Shown here piece after piece: positions 19,577 through 31,247 of a stretch of 64,000 nt of DNA. The translations under genes and the position numbers were made by a program. The notes beneath the pieces were generated by a model that saw only the letters and a list, made by a program, of their open reading frames with translations, did not search any database and was not told the origin of the DNA. Source of the DNA: Bacteroidia bacterium (GTDB lineage: Bacteria; Bacteroidota; Bacteroidia; Bacteroidales; Paludibacteraceae); assembly GCA_009929375.1 (NCBI GenBank), contig SAAO01000018.1, forward strand, positions 17,069 to 81,068, read 5' to 3'. How positions within the stretch are numbered: the stretch's first letter is position 1; each line of letters begins with the position of its first letter.

Positions 19577-20044
19577 TCAGCGGTCAGTCACTTTCACCGC
19601 TATTCCCTTAAAGGTTTGCCAGCCCGATTTATCGGTTAATCTGACAGTTATATGATAATCGCCTGTATCCACATTTGCAGGCACAACAATCTGATTTTGT
19701 ATTGCATACGAAGTTAAACCTGCCGGAATTTCATATTCTTCGATAAAAACAAACGGATTGACAGGCGATTTGACCTCCTCCATTTCGCAGCTCGTACCAC
19801 TTGTACTGTGCGTATGATGATCGAAATTGTGATGCATTTCAATACTGTATGAACCGAGTTCAGTATTGTCGGTTAGCGTGGCCGAAAACACAAAAGCTTC
19901 ACCCCGATACACTTTTGCACAGTTTTGCGGAAAATCATTCGCCCCCGTCATATCGATTTGTGGCACTTCCTCGTCTTTCACAATTTCGTCGCAACCTGCA
20001 AGGAGCAACAAAAGAAATGCAAAATATAACATTCTTATTTTCAT
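19577..20044 (-). CDS. DUF4625 domain lipoprotein
   Basis: This 155-residue lipoprotein has a type II signal with its lipobox cysteine at residue 18 (LLLLLAGC). The body is a single beta-sandwich of the DUF4625 type: RGEAFVFSATLTDNTELGSY, then a histidine-rich segment HHNFDHHTHSTS near residues 71-82, and a closing strand DTGDYHITVRLTDKSGWQTF. The histidine cluster could bind metal. It is the last gene of a minus-strand run that begins with a Fur-family regulator and a TonB receptor, and begins 9 bases after its paralogue ends. It probably acts at the outer membrane as a receptor-associated substrate-binding lipoprotein. Confidence 0.8.
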   Translation of the reverse strand: MKIRMLYFAFLLLLLAGCDEIVKDEEVPQIDMTGANDFPQNCAKVYRGEAFVFSATLTDNTELGSYSIEMHHNFDHHTHSTSGTSCEMEEVKSPVNPFVFIEEYEIPAGLTSYAIQNQIVVPANVDTGDYHITVRLTDKSGWQTFKGIAVKVTDR

Positions 20045-20053
20045 TGGAATAAA

Positions 20054-20479
20054 TTATTGAGCAATTAAAACTTCAAATTCTTTTTCTGCCGTAGTCTGAT
20101 TTCCTTCCATATCAGTCACAATAAGATGTAAATGATAAAAACCCGCAGGAGCAGTAGCCGGCACCTCAATATGTTCGTGAAAATCGGTATTTTTAACGCC
20201 AACATACTTTGTGCTATAAACCGAATCCACTTCCCAGGTATGCGCTTCGTCGGTAGCCTGAACAATGGAGGCATGCTCACCTTCAGGATGAATAGTGAGC
20301 CGGATTGTGCTGATTTTATGCTCAGCCACAATTTCCGCATCGATGTGTAAATCGGCTCCCTGCACTACTGTAGCCGTATTTTCATAACCAAGTTCATGTA
20401 TCTCAATTACGGGACTCTCGTTTTTATCACAGGCAGAAAAGCCAATAGCCAATAAGGCTGCAAAAAGAATTTTTCTCAT
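20054..20479 (-). CDS. DUF4625 domain lipoprotein (paralogue)
   Basis: This is a paralogue of the next gene. The ATG ending at 20479 gives 141 residues and a clean lipoprotein signal (MRKILFAALLAIGFSAC, lipobox cysteine 17). An ATG five codons earlier (20494) is equally possible. The DUF4625 beta-sandwich contains GADLHIDAEIVAEHKISTIR, scattered histidines (HPEGEHASIV, FHEHIEV) and the closing FYHLHLIVTDMEGNQTTAEK. It lies between the TonB receptor gene (19 bases upstream) and the second DUF4625 gene, so the three are almost certainly co-transcribed. The paired histidine-rich lipoproteins suggest a metal ligand. Confidence 0.8.
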   Translation of the reverse strand: MRKILFAALLAIGFSACDKNESPVIEIHELGYENTATVVQGADLHIDAEIVAEHKISTIRLTIHPEGEHASIVQATDEAHTWEVDSVYSTKYVGVKNTDFHEHIEVPATAPAGFYHLHLIVTDMEGNQTTAEKEFEVLIAQ

Positions 20480-20498
20480 TTTTATTTTAATCATTTGG

Positions 20499-22865
20499 TT
20501 ATAAAGGTATTTGTAAATGTGCTGAGAAATTCCGTCCGGGTCCGGGAACCTCAATCAAACGGTAAAACGAGGTATGGTCGTAGTATTTCTTATTAAAAAT
20601 ATTATCCACGCGAAGCTGAAATTTCAAAATCCGCCGGGAGTACTTTATTTCAGTTGCCCAATAGGCATGCAGCAACGCAAAACCTTCAGTAGTTTTCTCA
20701 GGTGGCACTACATTGTATTGTCGTGAAGTTAGTTGAAGCGTAAGTCCGGCTTCCGGTTTTCCCAAAAATTTTTTCTCTTTAGCTTTATAAATAACACCAA
20801 GATGCATATTAGCAGGAGGAGAAAACGGCAGAGTGTAACCTTTTTTAGCACCAGAAAGCTGCAAAGAGTATATGTATTCGGCATCAGCCGTAAATTCAAC
20901 TTTTTCTGTAGCTCTGTAGTTTACACTCAATTCAGCACCGGTTCTGAAAACCTTACTCTGACTGTGGTAAAACACCTGTTGAGCCATAAAATACTCATAA
21001 CCGGGATTAAGATAAATGTAATTGGGAAAATAATTTACAAAAGGGCTAAATGCCACGGTAAACTTTTGGGTCTCCCAATCGAGACCTGCATCAAGTTGAT
21101 AGGATGTTTCGGCACGAAGCGTCGAATCGCCTTTCTCGTAACGGTAATAATGATAATTCATACCATTCGAAGCAAGTTCTTTAGCATTGGGCATTCTGAA
21201 ACTTTTACCTGCATTTATTTTTAAAGTAAGCGTTTCGGATGCCTTCAGCATTGTCCCGATGGCCCAACTGAGATTATGATAATTTCGCGTCAGTGAAAAT
21301 GCCCGCTGCAAAAATTCAGGCTGACTTTTGACAACGCTCTCGTACCAATCGGTATAATCTCCTGTTCTCAAACGTCCGAAATCGTAACGTAAACCTGCAT
21401 TCAGATGCCATTTTTCCGAAAATACAATTTTATCCGTTGCAAAAATACCTGTCGTAAAACTTTTGTAATCAGGTAAAATAAATCCCCAGCCACCACGATT
21501 GTTATGCTGATATTCGGCATTTACACCGCTCACAAATTGATGTTTCCCGGCTTCGGCCATTGTAAATTTCATTTGTCCGGTAAATGTCGATTTATCAAAA
21601 TGCCGCTCCAGATTATTATCGGGAGCAGGCATATACCCGTGTGCAATGGCTTCCGAAAATTCGCTGCGAACATTCCGCTGATAACCCAGATCGAGATGAA
21701 TAAAATGGTCACTGAATTTTAAATTACTATTGCTCATTACTTTAAAGTGATTCACCTGTTGTGAAGGAAAATCGATATCGCGCGTTGAAGCATCATAATC
21801 GATACCCGATGTTCTGATTTCAAGTCCGTGAGCGTTGGCAAAAAAACCACTTTTGGCAAACACATTGCTCACAGTGAGATGACTTGCAAAATTGTAGCCC
21901 ACATATCCGGCGGTAGCACTTCCATTGTATTCGTATCCTGCAGTATTGCGCAGTCTGTTGTTTTTCAGTTTAAAATAATACGACATATACTCAATACTAT
22001 CAGTGGGTACTTTGTAATCGGCATAATGTGCAGTACTGAACTTTCCTTTTACATAAAAATTATCTGCGCGGGCAAAATATGAAGCAGCCGCTCCTACCCT
22101 GTCGCTGTTCGAACCGTAGCTCAAATCTGCTTTTCCACCATGAGTGTGACGATACGGAATTGAAAGTTGCTTCAGGTCAATCACGCCTGCAATGGCTCCT
22201 GCTCCGTACATAAGCGAAGCAGGACCTTTTACAATCTCAATTCGCTCCACACCATTCTGATCAATTTCAAGTCCGTGATCGGCGCCCCACTCCTGCCCTT
22301 CGTGCTTCAGACCATTTTCTGCCACAGTCACGCGATTAAAACCCAGTCCACGAATCACAGGCTTTGATTGTCCCGAACCAATACTGATTGTACTGATTCC
22401 GGGCAGGCGACTCAGCGTTTGCATCAGACTTCCGTTTTCGTTTCGTTTCAAAAAATCCTTATTCACCGAAACCAAAGCCGAAGTTTCCATGCTTTCCTTC
22501 CCGTTTTTTTTATCGGTTACCTGCAGTTCGCCCAGCAGATGAGTAGCAGGAGTCAGTTTTATTTTCAGAAATTCCCTGATAGCAAAATGCAGCGTATCGG
22601 TATATTTTTCATAACCTGTATACGACACTTCCACCACCAGCCAGGTTTGATTTATGGCCGGGAATTCAAACTGTCCGGTGCGGTTTGTCACCGTGCCAAA
22701 CTGTCCGTGATTGATTATCACAGTAGCTCCGGGCAATGGGTGGTTATGTTCATCGAACACCTGACCTCTCAGATTTACCGCCGGTTGCGACCAGCCTGAT
22801 GCAAAGCAAAAGAGCCAGAAAATTGTGGCAAAAACGATTTTTGTTTCTGCTGAAAATAGTTTCAT
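20499..22865 (-). CDS. TonB-dependent outer-membrane receptor (probable metal uptake)
   Basis: This 788-residue receptor has a signal peptide (cleavage near WSQ, residue 27), a carboxypeptidase-regulatory-like domain (about 30-115, LRGQVFDEHNHPLPGATVII), a plug (about 125-235, with LMQTLSRLPGISTI, KPVIRGLGFNRV and IVKGPASLMYGAGAIAGVI) and a beta barrel to the C terminus. It imports a ligand across the outer membrane with energy from TonB/ExbBD. The plug and the missing SusD partner point to a siderophore or metal type receptor rather than a glycan transporter. It lies 18 bases after a Fur-family regulator gene and is followed by two DUF4625 lipoproteins, so a metal or metal complex is the likely ligand. 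Confidence 0.9.
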   Translation of the reverse strand: MKLFSAETKIVFATIFWLFCFASGWSQPAVNLRGQVFDEHNHPLPGATVIINHGQFGTVTNRTGQFEFPAINQTWLVVEVSYTGYEKYTDTLHFAIREFLKIKLTPATHLLGELQVTDKKNGKESMETSALVSVNKDFLKRNENGSLMQTLSRLPGISTISIGSGQSKPVIRGLGFNRVTVAENGLKHEGQEWGADHGLEIDQNGVERIEIVKGPASLMYGAGAIAGVIDLKQLSIPYRHTHGGKADLSYGSNSDRVGAAASYFARADNFYVKGKFSTAHYADYKVPTDSIEYMSYYFKLKNNRLRNTAGYEYNGSATAGYVGYNFASHLTVSNVFAKSGFFANAHGLEIRTSGIDYDASTRDIDFPSQQVNHFKVMSNSNLKFSDHFIHLDLGYQRNVRSEFSEAIAHGYMPAPDNNLERHFDKSTFTGQMKFTMAEAGKHQFVSGVNAEYQHNNRGGWGFILPDYKSFTTGIFATDKIVFSEKWHLNAGLRYDFGRLRTGDYTDWYESVVKSQPEFLQRAFSLTRNYHNLSWAIGTMLKASETLTLKINAGKSFRMPNAKELASNGMNYHYYRYEKGDSTLRAETSYQLDAGLDWETQKFTVAFSPFVNYFPNYIYLNPGYEYFMAQQVFYHSQSKVFRTGAELSVNYRATEKVEFTADAEYIYSLQLSGAKKGYTLPFSPPANMHLGVIYKAKEKKFLGKPEAGLTLQLTSRQYNVVPPEKTTEGFALLHAYWATEIKYSRRILKFQLRVDNIFNKKYYDHTSFYRLIEVPGPGRNFSAHLQIPL

Positions 22866-22883
22866 CGAGTATTCCGGAGTTTC

Positions 22884-23303
22884 TTATTTCTGACTACAAA
22901 ATTTGCAATATCCCTTTATCATCACCTCACATTCCTCTGTCTGAAAACCTGCGGGAAGCCGGTATTGCTGAATGTCTGTATTTTCGAGGCAAAATGTTTT
23001 ACCACAACTTTTACAATTGAAATGTACGTGTTTGTGTATATGCTGATGTTTTTTCTCAGTTTCGCAACAATTGAGCGCATATTTCACAGTATGACTATCC
23101 ACTACAATCCTGTGTATCACTCCTGCATCTTCGAGCGCCTGCACATTGCGATAAAAAGTTATGCGGTCGTACTGATCGCTCATGCGGCTCTTCATTTCAT
23201 TCTCCGACTGAGGAAATGTACTTTCCTGCAATGCTTTGATAAGTGCAAGCCGTGAGTTGGTTTTTTTTAATTCGTGAACCTGTAATATATCTGTTGGTTT
23301 CAT
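22884..23303 (-). CDS. Fur-family metalloregulator
   Basis: This 139-residue repressor has the Fur fold. The winged helix spans residues 10-70, with recognition helix around YDRITFYRNVQALEDAGVIH. The dimerisation domain has two CxxC pairs for structural zinc (Cys97/Cys100 and Cys133/Cys136) and a histidine-rich sensor segment (KKHQHIHKHVHF). Whether it senses iron, zinc or peroxide cannot be decided from sequence alone. The ATG ending at 23303 is chosen because the longer frame from 23360 would start inside a double palindrome that looks like its own operator. It heads a probable operon with the TonB receptor and the two DUF4625 lipoproteins. Confidence 0.9.
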   Translation of the reverse strand: MKPTDILQVHELKKTNSRLALIKALQESTFPQSENEMKSRMSDQYDRITFYRNVQALEDAGVIHRIVVDSHTVKYALNCCETEKKHQHIHKHVHFNCKSCGKTFCLENTDIQQYRLPAGFQTEECEVMIKGYCKFCSQK

Positions 23304-23310
23304 ATTGCAG

Positions 23311-23346
23311 CATTTAAAACAATGTTTTAAATGAAACATTGTTTCA
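23311..23346. promoter_or_regulatory. Double palindromic Fur-family operator
   Basis: Two overlapping palindromes lie 8-43 bases upstream of the Fur-family start. The first (23311-23333) is perfect, with 11-base arms (CATTTAAAACA and TGTTTTAAATG) around one base. The second (23332-23346) is perfect, with 7-base arms (TGAAACA and TGTTTCA) around one base. The 7-1-7 core is the classic geometry of Fur/PerR/Zur boxes, so autorepression of the operon is the natural reading. Confidence 0.75.
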
Positions 23347-23542
23347 ATAAAAAAGTTCAATATACTAAAAAATTTATCTGGACTACATGTCTGAGTGTAT
23401 TCAGATAACCAAAAAATGATATTTAGCGGTCGTAAATAACTATAAACAAAAAAAATGAATTTAGATTGATCAAAATTTATTCAAAATAGGGGGATATTTG
23501 ACCTTTTTGGAACCAAAGATTCATTATTAAAATTATTATGCG

Positions 23543-23550
23543 TATTTTTG
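23543..23550 (+). promoter_or_regulatory. Bacteroidota -7 promoter element (TATTTTTG) for the VTC module
   Basis: TATTTTTG matches TAnnTTTG exactly, 90 bases before the TTG start at 23640. The predicted start of transcription lies just before the palindrome at 23567-23585. Confidence 0.5.
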
Positions 23551-23639: not shown

Positions 23640-24395
23640 TTGGAAAACTCTCTCGATTTATATGGCGGCTTTGAGCCCATTTCACTCGACGAAATGAATA
23701 AGGTGAAGCTGCTCGACAGGATGGACCGGAAATTTATGTTTCATTTCTCGCATCTGAACGACATACTGTCAATGGCTGCAGAGCACTTTTACATCCTCGA
23801 AATTTCAGGAAAACGTTTTGCGCGCTACGAAACCACCTACTTCGACACTCCCGATTTTGATATGTACACCCGTCATCACAACGGGAAACTGAATCGCTAC
23901 AAAGTGCGCTTCAGATCGTATGTTGATTCAAACCTCAATTTTTTCGAAATAAAATTCAAATCGAACAAAGGTCGCACCATCAAAAGCCGTATAAAGCTAC
24001 CCGACAATAAATGGTCGCTCGAAGGCGAAACCGGTGCACTTCTCGAAAAGAAAACCATTTACAAGGCTTCGGATCTCCAACCGGCACTACAGGTAAACTA
24101 CAACCGTATTACACTGGTAAACAAGAACATGACCGAACGACTGACCATCGATTTCGGTTTGAATTACATATGCGGAGAGAAACGTGCCGAATTACCATCG
24201 CTGATTATTGCCGAAGTAAAACAGGATCGATCGGGCAGTTCGGAATTTATCACCATCATGCAGCAAATGCGCATAAAACCAGCTTCCATGAGTAAATATT
24301 GCCTTGGAATTGCAAGTACAGTAAATAATGTAAAACTCAATAACTTTAAACAAAAAGTACGATATGTCAATCAAATTTTCTCAAAACATGCGTAA
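23640..24395 (+). CDS. VTC-domain (polyphosphate polymerase-like) protein
   Basis: This 251-residue protein carries a VTC domain, the tunnel-shaped fold that makes polyphosphate in the yeast vacuolar VTC complex; bacterial members are mostly untested. Family blocks are present: KVKLLDRMDRKFMFHFSHL near residue 22 (basic tunnel residues), ETTYFDTPDFDMYTRHHNGK, RYKVRFRSY, NFFEIKFKSNKGR and LPSLIIAEVKQDRSGSSEF. The start is a TTG; the first in-frame ATG would cut into the domain. It overlaps the DUF4956 gene and heads a four-gene module. It probably acts at the inner face of the membrane with the DUF4956 protein as its membrane partner, as seen in many genomes where the two are adjacent. Confidence 0.85.
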   Translation: MENSLDLYGGFEPISLDEMNKVKLLDRMDRKFMFHFSHLNDILSMAAEHFYILEISGKRFARYETTYFDTPDFDMYTRHHNGKLNRYKVRFRSYVDSNLNFFEIKFKSNKGRTIKSRIKLPDNKWSLEGETGALLEKKTIYKASDLQPALQVNYNRITLVNKNMTERLTIDFGLNYICGEKRAELPSLIIAEVKQDRSGSSEFITIMQQMRIKPASMSKYCLGIASTVNNVKLNNFKQKVRYVNQIFSKHA

Positions 24396-25119
24396 ATTAT
24401 TTGCAGGCGCATTGTTTTCGCTCTTCTTTTTAGTTCCATCACCGGCATTTGCTTCTGCACCTGTTGATGTAAATGTATTGCAGGCTGAATTCACAGATGC
24501 AGCTGCAGCTGAACCTCAGGATGGTTTACTCACTGTCACAAAGAAAAAAGATAAAATCCAGATAGATCAAAAATTCTTTTTCAGTCTTGTTATCGATCTG
24601 GCTGCAGTATTTCTGATCCTGATTTTTGTATATTATCCCAATTACAAAAAAATGGATACCATTTTTACATTCATGATGTTTAATCTGGTGATTTTCCTTT
24701 TGACTTTTGTACTAAATGAAGTAAAAATGTCGATGGGAGCTGCCTTCGGACTTTTTGCCATTTTCTCAATGTTGCGTTATCGTACAGCAGGTATCAACAT
24801 GAAAGATATGACTTACCTGTTTATTTTCATTGCCATGGGTCTTGTGAGTGCTATTCAGCTCGAATATCACGAACTGGCAATCATTACAGGTATTATCTTT
24901 GTGGGTACGCTGTTGCTCGACACGCGAATTGTAATGAAAAAAGAGTATTCGAATATATTGAGATACGAAAAAATTGAAATGATTAAGCCTGATAAACGTG
25001 AAGAACTGATTGCGGAACTTCGTGAACGTACAGGGCTGAATATACACCGCGTATCTATCAACGAAATTGATTTTCTGAAAGATACTGCTATGATTTCGTA
25101 CTACTATTACGAAAAATAA
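24388..25119 (+). CDS. DUF4956 membrane protein
   Basis: This is a DUF4956 protein. The ATG at 24388 overlaps the VTC-domain stop codon (ATGCGTAA) and gives 243 residues with a signal-like N terminus (MRKLFAGALFSLFFLVPSPAFA). An in-frame ATG at 24364 would add eight residues. Four hydrophobic helices follow (roughly 62-80, 88-105, 108-122 and 140-172) with the family signature AFGLFAIFSMLRYRTAGINM between helices. The C-terminal 60 residues are soluble (YEKIEMIKPDKREELIAELR). The family is known as a neighbour of VTC-domain genes and is presumed to form a membrane complex with them; the function is not established. Confidence 0.85.
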   Translation: MRKLFAGALFSLFFLVPSPAFASAPVDVNVLQAEFTDAAAAEPQDGLLTVTKKKDKIQIDQKFFFSLVIDLAAVFLILIFVYYPNYKKMDTIFTFMMFNLVIFLLTFVLNEVKMSMGAAFGLFAIFSMLRYRTAGINMKDMTYLFIFIAMGLVSAIQLEYHELAIITGIIFVGTLLLDTRIVMKKEYSNILRYEKIEMIKPDKREELIAELRERTGLNIHRVSINEIDFLKDTAMISYYYYEK

Positions 25120-25172
25120 TAATACGTATTTTCTTCACAATAATTTGTTAAGAAATTCGTTTTTAGTTTGTA

Positions 25173-25202
25173 ATGTCTTAATCTGCTAACAGATTAAGAC
25201 AT
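25173..25202. repeat. Perfect 13-bp inverted repeat between DUF4956 and DUF2490 genes
   Basis: The arms ATGTCTTAATCTG and CAGATTAAGACAT are perfect over 13 bases around the loop CTAA. No T run follows on the plus strand, so it is not a typical terminator. It could be an mRNA-stability hairpin or an operator. Confidence 0.6.
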
Positions 25203-25237
25203 ACCTGTAAAATAAAAAACCATTCTCTTGTCACAAA

Positions 25238-25966
25238 ATGAAAAGAAAACTCATCATATTATTGTTTGCAATTCTGCCTGTCACTTTTATATGGGCGCAG
25301 GGCGAATACGGATGCTGGACTACTATATCGCTGGAGAAAGAACTCAGCAAAAAATGGGAACTGGGCGCCGAAGCCGAAGTGCGCACAATATACTATGCGC
25401 GTTTAATCGAAAGAGCGAGCCTGGGATTAAGTGCCGATTATACCATTCTGAAAGGGTGGAAAGTGGGTGCTGGTTATCAGATTATGAACAAACTGGATAC
25501 GAAATATACGAACTATCAGTTGCGTAACCGCATTAACGTTTCCACCTCGGGACGATTGAAATTCAACGACCTGACGATTTCGCTACGCGAAAGAATTCAG
25601 TTTACAACTAAAGATGAGTCGAAGCGCATCAGAGACGATCAAACAATTGATACATATAAGATTAACCCTGAATGGAAATGGCGCAACCGCCTGCAATTGA
25701 GCTACAACATTCCAAATTGCAAAATAACTCCAACGGTTTCAGTCGAATCAAATTTTCAGTTGAACAACCCCGATGGTAATCATTTCGATAAAATGAGATA
25801 TGTTTTATCACTTGGTTATAAAATTAAAAAGGTGCATCTGATTGAAGTATTTGGTGTATTGGATGACGAATTTGAAACAGGTGAGGCAGGCGAGATCATC
25901 AGCAGTTCCGACGATGATGTGTATGGAAAATACAATCTGGGTATAGGTTATAAATATTCGTTTTGA
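25238..25966 (+). CDS. DUF2490 outer-membrane beta-barrel protein
   Basis: This 242-residue protein has a signal peptide (MKRKLIILLFAILPVTFIWAQ) and alternating aromatic/polar strands typical of a small outer-membrane barrel. WTTISLEKELSKKWELGAEA, then repeated strands such as KVGAGYQIMNK and QLRNRINVSTSGRLKFNDLT, fit DUF2490. It ends in a strand with a terminal phenylalanine (LGIGYKYSF), the usual signal for barrel insertion. It lies between DUF4956 and the beta-helix lipoprotein in the VTC module and may be the outer-membrane component of that system. The substrate is unknown. Confidence 0.8.
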   Translation: MKRKLIILLFAILPVTFIWAQGEYGCWTTISLEKELSKKWELGAEAEVRTIYYARLIERASLGLSADYTILKGWKVGAGYQIMNKLDTKYTNYQLRNRINVSTSGRLKFNDLTISLRERIQFTTKDESKRIRDDQTIDTYKINPEWKWRNRLQLSYNIPNCKITPTVSVESNFQLNNPDGNHFDKMRYVLSLGYKIKKVHLIEVFGVLDDEFETGEAGEIISSSDDDVYGKYNLGIGYKYSF

Positions 25967-25990
25967 TAAAACGAAAAAAAACAAAGTAAG

Positions 25991-27640
25991 ATGAAAAAAA
26001 TATTATTATTTTCCGCAATACTTAGTAGTTTTCTGTGGTTTAGCTCCTGCGACCCCGAGAATGTGATTGACGATCAGGGCAAAGACACTGACACACTCGA
26101 TTATGTTTGGGATGAAACCAAAGTAATTGACATAAAACTCAACAGCACTTCCATAGAATGTAACAGCACAAATGTGTCCATCAACGGACAAAATGCTGTT
26201 ATCACAAAAAAAGGAACCTACAAACTTTCGGGAACTCTCGAAAATGGCCAGATTGTGGTAAATGCTTCGGGAATTGTGCGACTCTTGCTCAACAACGTAA
26301 ACATCACCAGCCAAACTACTTCTGCCATTTACGTAGCCGATGCCAAAAGGGCAATTATCTTTTTACCCGAAGGCACGAACAACACAATTACCGACGGACC
26401 AAACTATGTAATGACTGCCGACAGTATCAATTCAACGATTTACAGTCGCGACTATATGGCTATTGCCGGTTCCGGAAAACTAACTGTAAATGCAAATTAT
26501 AACAGCGCCATTTCGTCGCGTGACGAATTGATTATTGAAAGTGGCGATATCACCGTAAATTCAGTAGGGCTGGGTATCAAAGGTAAAGACTATCTGATTA
26601 TCAACGGAGGTAAATTCAACATTAAAAGTGGTGGCGATGGACTGAAATCGGACAAGGATTCAACCGAAAACGAAGGTTTTATTGAGATCAACAACGGAGA
26701 ATTCGATATCATTTCGGATCAGGATGCTATATCGGCGCAAACTGAATTGAGAATTAAAAATGGCACATTCCGCATAACCACTGGCGGCGGAAGCAACTTT
26801 ACGTCGGATCTTATTTCGGCCAAAGGATTGAAGTCGCAGGACAGAATTACAATTGAAAATGGTGGTTTCACACTCGACTGTGCTGATAATATTATAGACG
26901 CCGACAATCATCTGACCATCAATGGAGGAAATTTTGTTTTAAGCTCGGGCAACAAACCTCTTGACTCTGATTCAACTCTGACTATCAACGGAGGAACAGT
27001 GCAGATTACAAAATCTGTAAAAGGAATCAGTTCTCATCACATTGCTGTTAACGGAGGACTTGTGACGGTTTTATCGCGCAACGACTGTATGAAAGCTTCG
27101 CTGGGTGCTGAGCTTACCACCGACGATGGCAGTTCGATAAGTATAAACGGTGGTATGGTGACATTAAGCTCCGACAAGGGTGATGCACTCGACAGCAACG
27201 GAAGTATTCTGATTGGCGGAGGCGCAACTATTGTACAAGGCTCGGCTACCAAGCCCGACGATGCTGTTTCGTACCGCAGTACATTCAAAATCAATGGAGG
27301 AAGCATGTATGCTGCTGGAGCCACTTCGCTTCTGCCACAAAATGATTCGCAGCAAAATTCACTGGCGGTAAGTTTTAGCATTATTCAGCCTCCCGGACAG
27401 ATTTTCTGCATTCAAACCGAAGCTGGAGTTACTGTAGCTGCCTTTAAAGCTACACGCTATTCATACTTCTTCATGACTTCATTCCCCGGATTAGAAACCG
27501 GAAAGACCTATAATTTATACACAGGTGGTACATTGACTGGCACCGACATAGGTGGTTATTACATTGATGGAGTTTATACACCGGGTGCAAAGAAAACCAC
27601 ATTTACAGTAAATCAGAGAGTCACTTCGATAAAGCTGTAA
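25991..27640 (+). CDS. Cthe_2159-like beta-helix lipoprotein (carbohydrate-binding type)
   Basis: This 549-residue lipoprotein has its lipobox cysteine near residue 20 (FLWFSSC). Most of the chain is a repetitive right-handed beta-helix with short N-G-G turns: LTVNANYNSAISSRDELIIE, LIINGGKFNIKSGGDGLKS, FEINNGEFDIIS-like rungs and TLTINGGTVQI. This pattern fits the carbohydrate-binding Cthe_2159 family. In other genomes that family sits beside VTC, DUF4956 and CotH-type genes. It begins 25 bases after the DUF2490 gene and is the last gene of the module, closed by a terminator. Acidic residues in SDKDSTENEG and SDQDAIS loops could bind calcium. A role in surface binding is an inference. Confidence 0.8.
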   Translation: MKKILLFSAILSSFLWFSSCDPENVIDDQGKDTDTLDYVWDETKVIDIKLNSTSIECNSTNVSINGQNAVITKKGTYKLSGTLENGQIVVNASGIVRLLLNNVNITSQTTSAIYVADAKRAIIFLPEGTNNTITDGPNYVMTADSINSTIYSRDYMAIAGSGKLTVNANYNSAISSRDELIIESGDITVNSVGLGIKGKDYLIINGGKFNIKSGGDGLKSDKDSTENEGFIEINNGEFDIISDQDAISAQTELRIKNGTFRITTGGGSNFTSDLISAKGLKSQDRITIENGGFTLDCADNIIDADNHLTINGGNFVLSSGNKPLDSDSTLTINGGTVQITKSVKGISSHHIAVNGGLVTVLSRNDCMKASLGAELTTDDGSSISINGGMVTLSSDKGDALDSNGSILIGGGATIVQGSATKPDDAVSYRSTFKINGGSMYAAGATSLLPQNDSQQNSLAVSFSIIQPPGQIFCIQTEAGVTVAAFKATRYSYFFMTSFPGLETGKTYNLYTGGTLTGTDIGGYYIDGVYTPGAKKTTFTVNQRVTSIKL

Positions 27641-27663
27641 GTATACAAAACTTATAAAATTTG

Positions 27664-27695
27664 AAAGCAGTGAATTGACGTTCACTGCTTTTTTT
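27664..27695 (+). terminator. Rho-independent terminator after the VTC module
   Basis: AAAGCAGTGAA (27664-27674) pairs perfectly with TTCACTGCTTT (27681-27691) around a 6-base loop and runs into Ts. It closes the four-gene module 23 bases after its stop codon. Confidence 0.85.
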
Positions 27696-28855: not shown

Positions 28856-30250
28856 ATGAAAAAACTGATTTTATTTGCATTAACACTACTTTTCAGCTGC
28901 TTTGCACAGGCTCAGGTTCCGGCTTTTCCCGGTGCACTGGGCGGAGGAGCTTATGTGACCGGAGGCCGCGGAGGTAAAGTACTGGTGGTAAATTCACTTG
29001 CCGACGATGGCAGCGAGGGAACACTCCGCTGGGCCATTGATCAGAAGGGTGCGCGAATCATCGTGTTTCGCGTGGCCGGAATAATTGAACTACAGTCGGA
29101 ACTCAAGATAAATCGCGGTCATGTTACCATTGCCGGACAGTCGGCTCCGGGCGATGGCATTACCATTAAAAATCATCCGGTGGTAGTAAGTTCCGACAAC
29201 GTCATCATCCGTTTCATACGTTTTCGTATGGGTGATGAATTTTTCGAACAGGAAGATGCACTGAAAGGTTTGCGCAAGAAGGATATCATGATAGATCATT
29301 GCTCGATGAGCTGGAGCACCGACGAATGTGCTTCGTTTTACGATAACGAAAATTTCACGCTGCAATGGTGTATTCTGTCGGAAAGTTTGAGAAATTCAAC
29401 TCATAAAAAAGGTTCACATGGCTACGGAGGAATTTGGGGCGGCAAAAAAGCATCGTTCCACCACAATCTTCTGGCACATCACGACAGTCGCAATCCGCGC
29501 TTTTGCGGAAGCCGTTACAGCAATCAGCCCGAACTCGAAAAAGTTGATTTCCGCAACAATGTAATTTATAACTGGGGAAGCAACAGTGGCTATGCAGGCG
29601 AAGGTGGCGAATATAATATCATAAACAATTACTATAAACCCGGCCCTGCCACACTCGCCGGAAGTGGAAAACACACTTACCGCATTTTCTCACCAAATGC
29701 CGATGAAGGAGCAAATGCTCAGGCTCAGGGTGTTTGGGGAAAATTCTTTCTAAAAGGAAATGTAATGCACGGTCGCAAAAACGTAAGCCGCAACAATCTC
29801 CTTGGTTTTCATCCGAACACCGACGACAAAACTATAAAAACTGAAGATTTGCTTTTAAAGGAAGAAGTAAAACTGTTTGAATTTCCACGTCAGTGCGCGA
29901 AAAAAGCCTACACTCAGGTATTGAAAAAAGCAGGAGCCAGTTTCGTTCGCGACGAAGTGGACAAACGCATTGTGCAGGAAGTTAAAGCGGGCTCATACAC
30001 TTTTACCGGATCGAACGGTAGCAAAAACGGGCTTATTGATTCGCAAAAAGACGTAGGAGGCTGGCCCGTCTACACCTACAACGCAGCCAATGTTCCGGCC
30101 GATAGTGATATGGATGGCATGCCCGACGAATGGGAAATAAAGAACAAACTCGACAAAAATAATCCGGCCGATGCGTCTGTGACCGGTTTAAATAAAAATT
30201 ATACAAATATCGAAGTATATCTGAATAGTCTGGTAAATCATTTATATTGA
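28856..30250 (+). CDS. Secreted pectate lyase (polysaccharide lyase family 1 type)
   Basis: This 464-residue protein has a signal peptide (MKKLILFALTLLFSCFAQAQ) and a right-handed parallel beta-helix of the PL1 pectate lyase type. Typical blocks are FPGALGGGAYVTGGRGGKVL, VTIAGQSAPGDGITIK, IIRFIRFRMGD, IMIDHCSMSWSTDE, NPRFCGSRYSNQPELE and VDFRNNVIYNWG. It should cleave polygalacturonate by beta-elimination with calcium. A C-terminal segment DSDMDGMPDEWEIKNKLD resembles a calcium-binding linker common in Bacteroidota lyases. No T9SS sorting domain is visible, so it is likely periplasmic or soluble. A hairpin follows the gene. Confidence 0.9.
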   Translation: MKKLILFALTLLFSCFAQAQVPAFPGALGGGAYVTGGRGGKVLVVNSLADDGSEGTLRWAIDQKGARIIVFRVAGIIELQSELKINRGHVTIAGQSAPGDGITIKNHPVVVSSDNVIIRFIRFRMGDEFFEQEDALKGLRKKDIMIDHCSMSWSTDECASFYDNENFTLQWCILSESLRNSTHKKGSHGYGGIWGGKKASFHHNLLAHHDSRNPRFCGSRYSNQPELEKVDFRNNVIYNWGSNSGYAGEGGEYNIINNYYKPGPATLAGSGKHTYRIFSPNADEGANAQAQGVWGKFFLKGNVMHGRKNVSRNNLLGFHPNTDDKTIKTEDLLLKEEVKLFEFPRQCAKKAYTQVLKKAGASFVRDEVDKRIVQEVKAGSYTFTGSNGSKNGLIDSQKDVGGWPVYTYNAANVPADSDMDGMPDEWEIKNKLDKNNPADASVTGLNKNYTNIEVYLNSLVNHLY

Positions 30251-30404: not shown

Positions 30405-30443
30405 AGTTTAGAAAATTATGTCTAACATCTAAAATAAATGATC

Positions 30444-31247
30444 ATGAAAAAAACATTACTTTTTATTGCTGCAACAATGTTTACTTTTTCACTGAGTGCC
30501 CAAAGAACATGGGTTGTAGGTGACGATGCAACGAATTTTCCTGTAAGCGCTGGCATTGGTGCCGGACCTGATAAATCTGTTTTTGTTGCCGATTTAGGCA
30601 TACATACAGGTACAGCGACAAATACAAATATGGGACAGGTTGAAGCTTCTTCAAAGTCTTTTGGAGATATAACCTACCCAAACAGATTCAAAATGAACGG
30701 AGCTGGTTATCCAAGTGCGGCTGATACTCAAACTACTCCTGCTGTTGGTGAAACCACATACTACACTCCAACACAACGTTTCCTCACTATAAAGGTTACC
30801 GGAGCAGGAACTATAAAAATACAAGGAGTTACCGGATCCAGTTCCTCAACACGAAGACTTTTCGTAACCAATGGAACAAGTCTTGTTGGAACAATGGTTT
30901 TCGAAGCAGGGTCTGCAATCAGTGAACAAACAGTTGAATATACCGGAGGAGAAGCAGTTCTTTATATTTTCGGAAATCAATCGATAAATTTATATCGTAT
31001 TGAAGCAACTTCAGCAACCACGCACACTTCATTAACCTCATCTGTAAACAACATTTTCACTGACAAAGGCATTCGTTTCGACGGTGTAAAACTTACAAAC
31101 GAATCAAACTTATCGTTAAGAGTTTACAATACTCTTGGAAAAGAAGTAGCCCGCGCCAACTCTGAAATCAATATGAGTACTTTGCCGAAGGGCGTTTACA
31201 TGGTTCGTGCCGAAGGAGTTAAAGGTGCTTTCAAATTCTCAAAATAG
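30444..31247 (+). CDS. T9SS type A sorting domain secreted protein
   Basis: This 267-residue protein has a signal peptide (MKKTLLFIAATMFTFSLSAQ) and ends with a T9SS type A sorting domain (about residues 195-267: SLRVYNTLGKEVARANSEIN, STLPKGVYMVRAEG and a short basic tail). It is therefore exported to the cell surface by the type IX system. The middle part (25-190) is a beta-rich, serine/threonine-rich domain of unknown function, with RFLTIKVTGAGTIKIQGVTG and AVLYIFGNQSINLYRIEA. It may bind polysaccharide, given the pectate lyase next to it, but this is an inference. The second ATG at 30444 gives the best signal peptide. Confidence 0.8.
   Translation: MKKTLLFIAATMFTFSLSAQRTWVVGDDATNFPVSAGIGAGPDKSVFVADLGIHTGTATNTNMGQVEASSKSFGDITYPNRFKMNGAGYPSAADTQTTPAVGETTYYTPTQRFLTIKVTGAGTIKIQGVTGSSSSTRRLFVTNGTSLVGTMVFEAGSAISEQTVEYTGGEAVLYIFGNQSINLYRIEATSATTHTSLTSSVNNIFTDKGIRFDGVKLTNESNLSLRVYNTLGKEVARANSEINMSTLPKGVYMVRAEGVKGAFKFSK

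Follow-up and report, generated by a model that had tools for sequence, protein, structure and literature searches.

A conserved VTC-DUF4956-DUF2490 gene core with variable surface partners in Bacteroidota

The described systems closest to the locus analyzed here are the eukaryotic VTC complex (Vtc4, Vtc1-3) and the accessory block of Gram-positive pel clusters, in which, as far as the available parts of the two reports go, CotH, VTC-type polyphosphate polymerase and DUF4956 genes adjoin the cluster and, with DUF4832, make up a block that includes SIR_1591-1594 (PMC7112168; PMC12345266). According to the accessible text of the second report, deletion of the Streptococcus intermedius DUF4956 relative raised the Pel signal and lowered aggregation, loss of CotH reduced both, and the mutant lacking the VTC-type gene, which that text does not single out, retained both (PMC12345266). 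Here we examine a four-gene module encoding VTC, DUF4956, DUF2490 and Cthe_2159 family proteins in a stretch of 64,000 nucleotides (the window) on contig SAAO01000018.1 of a Bacteroidia bacterium (Paludibacteraceae, GCA_009929375.1; 3.87 Mb, 122 contigs, 99.98% complete). A preliminary description of this DNA held that no function had been shown for such genes, a statement that the streptococcal effects on Pel level and aggregation, as given in that text, qualify. Pfam bore out the four families at scores over the curated cut-offs, together with the order and the shared plus strand first proposed:

23640-24395, plus strand: VTC-domain protein, 251 amino acids, TTG start at 23640 (PF09359, E 4.1e-30, 105.5 bits against a cut-off of 23)
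24364-25119, plus strand: DUF4956 inner-membrane protein (PF16316, E 7e-48), with an alternative ATG start at 24388
25238-25966, plus strand: DUF2490 protein, predicted outer-membrane barrel, 242 amino acids (PF10677, E 1.4e-26, 93.8 bits against 29.8)
25991-27640, plus strand: Cthe_2159-family beta-helix protein, predicted surface lipoprotein, 549 amino acids (PF14262, E 1.3e-85)

The VTC and DUF4956 frames overlap by 32 nt (ATG 24364) or 8 nt (ATG 24388), while 118 nt separate DUF4956 from DUF2490 and 24 nt separate DUF2490 from Cthe_2159; NCBIfam matched none of the four proteins, and PHROGs matched neither VTC nor DUF2490. Like the Pel accessory block, the module sets a VTC-type gene next to DUF4956; unlike that block, it has DUF2490 and Cthe_2159, and the 64-kb window holds no CotH-core match. 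No pel operon is evident beside the module, although no Pel profile was run. With the eukaryotic complex the locus shares a predicted tunnel fold and the pairing of membrane helices with a tunnel domain that would be cytoplasmic. It differs in that VTC is the sole Pfam domain of the 251-residue protein, with neither an SPX domain nor a fused membrane part, in that its membrane partner, DUF4956, belongs to an unrelated family, and in that predicted outer-membrane and surface parts are added.

The first three genes stay together across the phylum. Among 198 genomes sampled from the phylum, in which profile matches were compared by coordinates, DUF4956 matched in 59, VTC in 37, DUF2490 in 70 and Cthe_2159 in 7 (5 over the cut-off). 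The DUF4956 matches comprise a weak type and a strong type (E below 1e-44; 19 places in 18 genomes). VTC lies immediately upstream at 17 of the 19 strong places, and DUF2490 directly adjoins at least 12 of them, nine in the order VTC-DUF4956-DUF2490 and three in the order DUF2490-VTC-DUF4956. In one genome (G158) DUF2490 stands about 1.6 kb from VTC with CotH in between, and Cthe_2159 adjoins the core solely in the window's own genome. In 14 control genomes VTC and DUF4956 matched in the identical three.

In a sample of 295 Bacteroidales genomes, 108 carry strong DUF4956 matches (E up to 1.2e-33), at 116 places in total, which we compared as 115 regions plus the window using profiles built from the loci and counting genes in runs on the same strand as DUF4956; because some runs stop at contig edges, these counts are lower bounds. 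VTC is in the run at 99 loci, DUF2490 at 70 and all three core genes at 67, while Cthe_2159 is present in 18 runs (17 with VTC) and CotH in 19. Two small proteins also recur, CRE (40/116) and the repeat protein YD (47/116); the one example of each that was checked had no Pfam match. The genes are tightly packed, as evidenced by gaps of at most 30 nt for VTC-DUF4956 in 91/100 cases, DUF4956-DUF2490 in 55/68 and DUF2490-Cthe_2159 in 10/10. The adjacency of VTC and DUF4956, which the preliminary description took as established, is thus upheld, and of its last two genes DUF2490 proves a conserved neighbor, whereas Cthe_2159 is one in a subset only. Its gene list was also incomplete, having overlooked CotH and the two small proteins, which often lie upstream of VTC.

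A further collection of named loci comprises the best 80 of 572 confirmed relatives and is therefore a sample of near relatives. VTC occurs in 74 of these 80, DUF2490 in 63, all three core genes in 59, Cthe_2159 in 1, CRE in 38 and YD in 32, and DUF4956 and DUF2490 lie within 30 nt in 55 of 62 loci. CotH shares the run in 33, a likeness to the Pel accessory block. These CotH-sharing Bacteroidota runs bear on the statement, in the available text of PMC12345266, that the three-gene CotH/VTC/DUF4956 arrangement was not found outside Pel loci. Among the loci analyzed here, several runs hold just module genes (for example, L219, L236, L258 and L259). Two loci labeled Bifidobacterium breve (L063) and Candidatus Methanoperedens (L054) carry Bacteroidota-type modules, and their contigs may be mis-binned.

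Within the genus, DUF4956 occurs at 15 places in 14 of 40 genomes, and nine of the 14 places outside the window were retrieved (L324-L332). The four-gene order is found in L324, L326 and L327, with more than one Cthe_2159 frame in L324 and L327; L328-L332 carry the triad without Cthe_2159, and L325 runs into a contig edge behind DUF2490. DUF4956 and DUF2490 are separated by 1 nt in L326, 30 in L327, 89 in L324, 133 in L325 and, in the window, 118; in the other five the frames overlap. Outside the phylum, a single example from Paenibacillus cellulosilyticus (Bacillota) has VTC, DUF4956 and Cthe_2159 in a row, each Pfam-confirmed, with no DUF2490 profile match in the 14.9-kb stretch; its lack of DUF2490 in a single-membrane cell fits the barrel as an outer-membrane addition. 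We found no description of a VTC-DUF4956-DUF2490 or VTC-DUF4956-Cthe_2159 unit in the titles and abstract openings listed by our searches of open-access literature. The locus is a module with a conserved three-gene core and a variable surface part. The earlier idea that it spans the cell from cytoplasm to surface stands as to the recurring neighborhood, whose products plausibly represent the cytoplasm, both membranes and the surface.

The best-supported mechanism, which we advance tentatively, is that polyphosphate is made in the cytoplasm, passed by DUF4956 and carried or held at the surface. The VTC-fold enzyme would make polyphosphate from ATP, DUF4956 would serve as the channel or gate by which the chain crosses the inner membrane, and the DUF2490 barrel would provide the outer-membrane exit. 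At the cell surface, the barrel and the lipoprotein would transport or retain polyphosphate, or phosphate from the chain, and the surface protein would be the site of product use, with Cthe_2159, for example, binding the polyanion via calcium bridges. What the analysis shows is which four families are present and in what order, how closely the genes are spaced in relatives, that Cthe_2159 or CotH recurs beside the core, that the one single-membrane example lacks DUF2490, and that the VTC protein has a VTC-like predicted fold with conserved tunnel residues. If correct, this mechanism would constitute a dedicated polyphosphate synthesis-and-export route separate from PPK1, resembling eukaryotic VTC but directed to the surface, and would give DUF4956, DUF2490 and bacterial VTC proteins a common job.

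The predicted model of the VTC protein (pLDDT 93.8) has the VTC tunnel fold, its best PDB matches being yeast VTC tunnel domains. R86/K88/R90/R92, E192 and K219 are kept in 95-99 of 99 VTC proteins and include candidate counterparts of Vtc4 R264, R266, E426 and K458, with equivalence taken from aligned ranges and not from structural columns. Near-invariance of these catalytic-type residues suggests catalysis beyond mere binding. Synthesis of polyphosphate from ATP by this predicted cytoplasmic enzyme is likely.

The main rival to polyphosphate export is regulation. An MgtC-like DUF4956 and a phosphate- or nucleotide-binding VTC protein would act as a phosphate sensor that controls surface polysaccharide or adhesin output, and neither would export anything. 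This possibility, which we hold to be somewhat unlikely, draws on the ancestry of DUF4956, in whose model (pLDDT 84.6) five membrane helices precede a C-terminal beta-alpha-beta-beta domain. A sister DUF4956 subfamily (7 sequences) matched MgtC (3 sequences) by hhalign at 96.4% over 129 columns with a score of 66.9, whereas the reversed profile scored 24.4 and none of 40 column shuffles exceeded 18.6, and the window-type DUF4956 matched the sister subfamily at 98.6% in a profile comparison. By this route, at the level of sequence profiles, DUF4956 is linked to the MgtC/SapB family, in agreement with the available description of SIR_1592, its streptococcal relative, as combining an MgtC transmembrane domain with an ACT domain (PMC12345266). 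The window's own DUF4956, however, matches MgtC (PF02308) weakly when compared directly (hhalign 10.3%) and has no MgtC match in a Pfam scan. The S. intermedius deletion effects described above, with the VTC-type mutant not singled out, and the position of CotH/VTC/DUF4956 next to Gram-positive pel clusters also favor regulation; a regulator would leave the conserved DUF2490 neighbor unexplained, and the near-invariant tunnel residues speak for catalysis.

Rather less probable are two adjacent units, VTC-DUF4956 for phosphate handling and DUF2490-Cthe_2159 for plant polysaccharide binding. The DUF2490 protein, with a signal-peptide-like start and a terminal Phe, is predicted to be an outer-membrane barrel; the Cthe_2159 protein, with a lipoprotein-like start and the Cys motif SSCDPEN, both read from the sequence, is a predicted surface lipoprotein and a beta-helix relative of a solved structure (PDB 4peu, E 1.6e-32; the family also includes 4phb). 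Known ligands of the Cthe_2159 family are cellulose and polygalacturonic acid, and the available text on the known member concerns plant polysaccharide binding (PMC6712302), a setting unlike that of the window; a tie of this family to VTC/DUF4956 was not found in the open-access listings searched. Cthe_2159 scored over the cut-off in 50 of the 295 Bacteroidales genomes, and of its listed places we took 57, omitting the weakest and extra same-frame matches. VTC, DUF4956 and DUF2490 are all present in 16 of these 57 loci, spread over 11 families by the table's family numbers. Eight have VTC-DUF4956-DUF2490-Cthe_2159, three Cthe_2159-VTC-DUF4956-DUF2490, three Cthe_2159-CRE-YD-VTC-DUF4956-DUF2490, one DUF2490-Cthe_2159-VTC-DUF4956, and one is divergent. 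Since L142 has DUF4956 without VTC, bringing the DUF4956 total to 17, 40 loci have neither gene in the retrieved stretch. DUF2490 directly adjoins Cthe_2159 with no VTC in the retrieved stretch in six loci (L143, L144, L187, L188, L192 and L193; Pfam-confirmed in L144 and L187), so that the two may form a pair on their own. Against a division into two units stand the several differing orders in which the 16 loci join Cthe_2159 to the core, the Paenibacillus row that links VTC-DUF4956 to Cthe_2159, the closeness of DUF4956 and DUF2490 in the order-level and named loci, and the 1-nt gap in the same-genus four-gene locus L326. Two records of a plasmid collection match Cthe_2159, and a 14.5-kb Acetoanaerobium stretch around Cthe_2159 has no VTC or DUF4956.

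Transcription signals in the window are as follows:

23543-23550, plus strand: weak candidate Bacteroidetes -7 promoter box, TATTTTTG
25173-25202, plus strand: perfect 13-bp hairpin with a 4-nt loop and no T run, in the DUF4956-DUF2490 gap
27663-27692, plus strand: terminator-like hairpin followed by a T run, from a consensus scan

Two of these call for qualification. The box TATTTTTG agrees with the Bacteroidetes -7 consensus, but TANNTTTG occurs 82 times in the window against a shuffle mean of 76.3, the chance rate, and an own promoter drawn from it was rejected. The 118-nt gap, which also favors two units, folds with z -5.15, and its hairpin, with a 26-nt core (25175-25200) unique within the window allowing up to 3 mismatches, makes a split or processed transcript possible. 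Of the promoter and terminator ascribed to the module earlier, only the terminator-like hairpin with its T run is retained, in a region with 4 such hairpins against 2.7 expected from shuffles.

That the VTC protein is instead a triphosphate tunnel hydrolase (tripolyphosphatase or nucleotide phosphatase) is comparably improbable. Of the four acidic-patch positions of tunnel phosphatases, three could be mapped by aligned ranges and motif spacing; one is acidic (D29), and those of AtTTM3 Glu-2 and Glu-171 appear as R27 (95/99) and K194 (98/99), which are basic as described for Vtc4 (PMC4641920) and speak against a hydrolase. Yeast VTC chains also fill the top VIA rows, although the drop there, 16.9 to 16.2, lies inside the tie margin. 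The module as a PPK1 replacement was rejected, as strong DUF4956 and PPK1 are independent in the 295 Bacteroidales genomes (70 with both, 38 with DUF4956 only, 121 with PPK1 only and 66 with neither; odds ratio 1.00, p = 1). PPK1 (PF02503) was not found in the window's genome, and PPK2 was not searched for. In Bacteroides thetaiotaomicron, BT3498-99, annotated as DUF4956 and DUF2490, appears as a single entry in an iron-dependent table of PMC10434189, at -7.6 and with a second value of 0.175 that is not significant if it is a p value.

Returning to polyphosphate export, the surface partners vary. CotH was labeled with a kinase-core profile, and all 37 CotH-core proteins in the named runs are Pfam CotH, 28 of them with a type IX sorting tail; the window's genome has 7 CotH matches, and the two among the matches listed are on other contigs. 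Cthe_2159 (18 loci) and CotH (19) share no run among the 116 order-level loci, where about 3 are expected (Fisher p 0.04, in related genomes). Outside VTC runs the two genes are immediate neighbors in L143 and L194 (confirmed by Pfam), and in L169 they stand 2.3 kb apart. We do not claim mutual exclusion, because related genomes are not independent and the two adjoin in L143 and L194, and we read the two as alternative or joint surface partners. A bolder extension, which we rate as a long shot, is that exported polyphosphate serves outside the cell as phosphoryl donor or polyanion glue, with type IX-secreted CotH kinases using the donor without ATP, Cthe_2159 lipoproteins holding it via calcium and the surface protein being the part that varies. 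If true, export could answer where extracellular CotH-type kinases obtain phosphate without ATP.

Other neighbors recur around these loci. Several have, upstream of CotH, ASST-like and propeller proteins bearing type IX tails (L296:12816-16248, L036:2335-4506), which are possible further surface cargo. Behind the module at L202:10822-12788 come a histidine kinase and a LytTR response regulator, a candidate regulator of the module, and similar-sized pairs flank other runs. Downstream of VTC-DUF4956 at L227:5100-7920, a 357-aa protein without a Pfam match precedes an ankyrin and calcineurin-like phosphoesterase protein, and similar-sized pairs follow VTC-less DUF4956 in L275, L279 and L286, possibly another partner set. 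A DUF6057 protein follows the module at L203:7737-9572, with similar-sized genes in L204, L269 and L273.

In the window itself, the minus-strand genes at 19577-23360, divergent from the module, resemble a metal-uptake operon, with a Fur-family regulator by Pfam (22884-23360) and, by reading, a 788-aa TonB-dependent-receptor-like gene (20499-22865) and two small lipoprotein-like genes. On the 3' side of the module, a plus-strand gene at 28856-30250 encodes a 464-aa pectate-lyase-type beta-helix by reading, without a Pfam match, and is followed by a plus-strand gene (30438-31247) whose product carries a type IX sorting tail.

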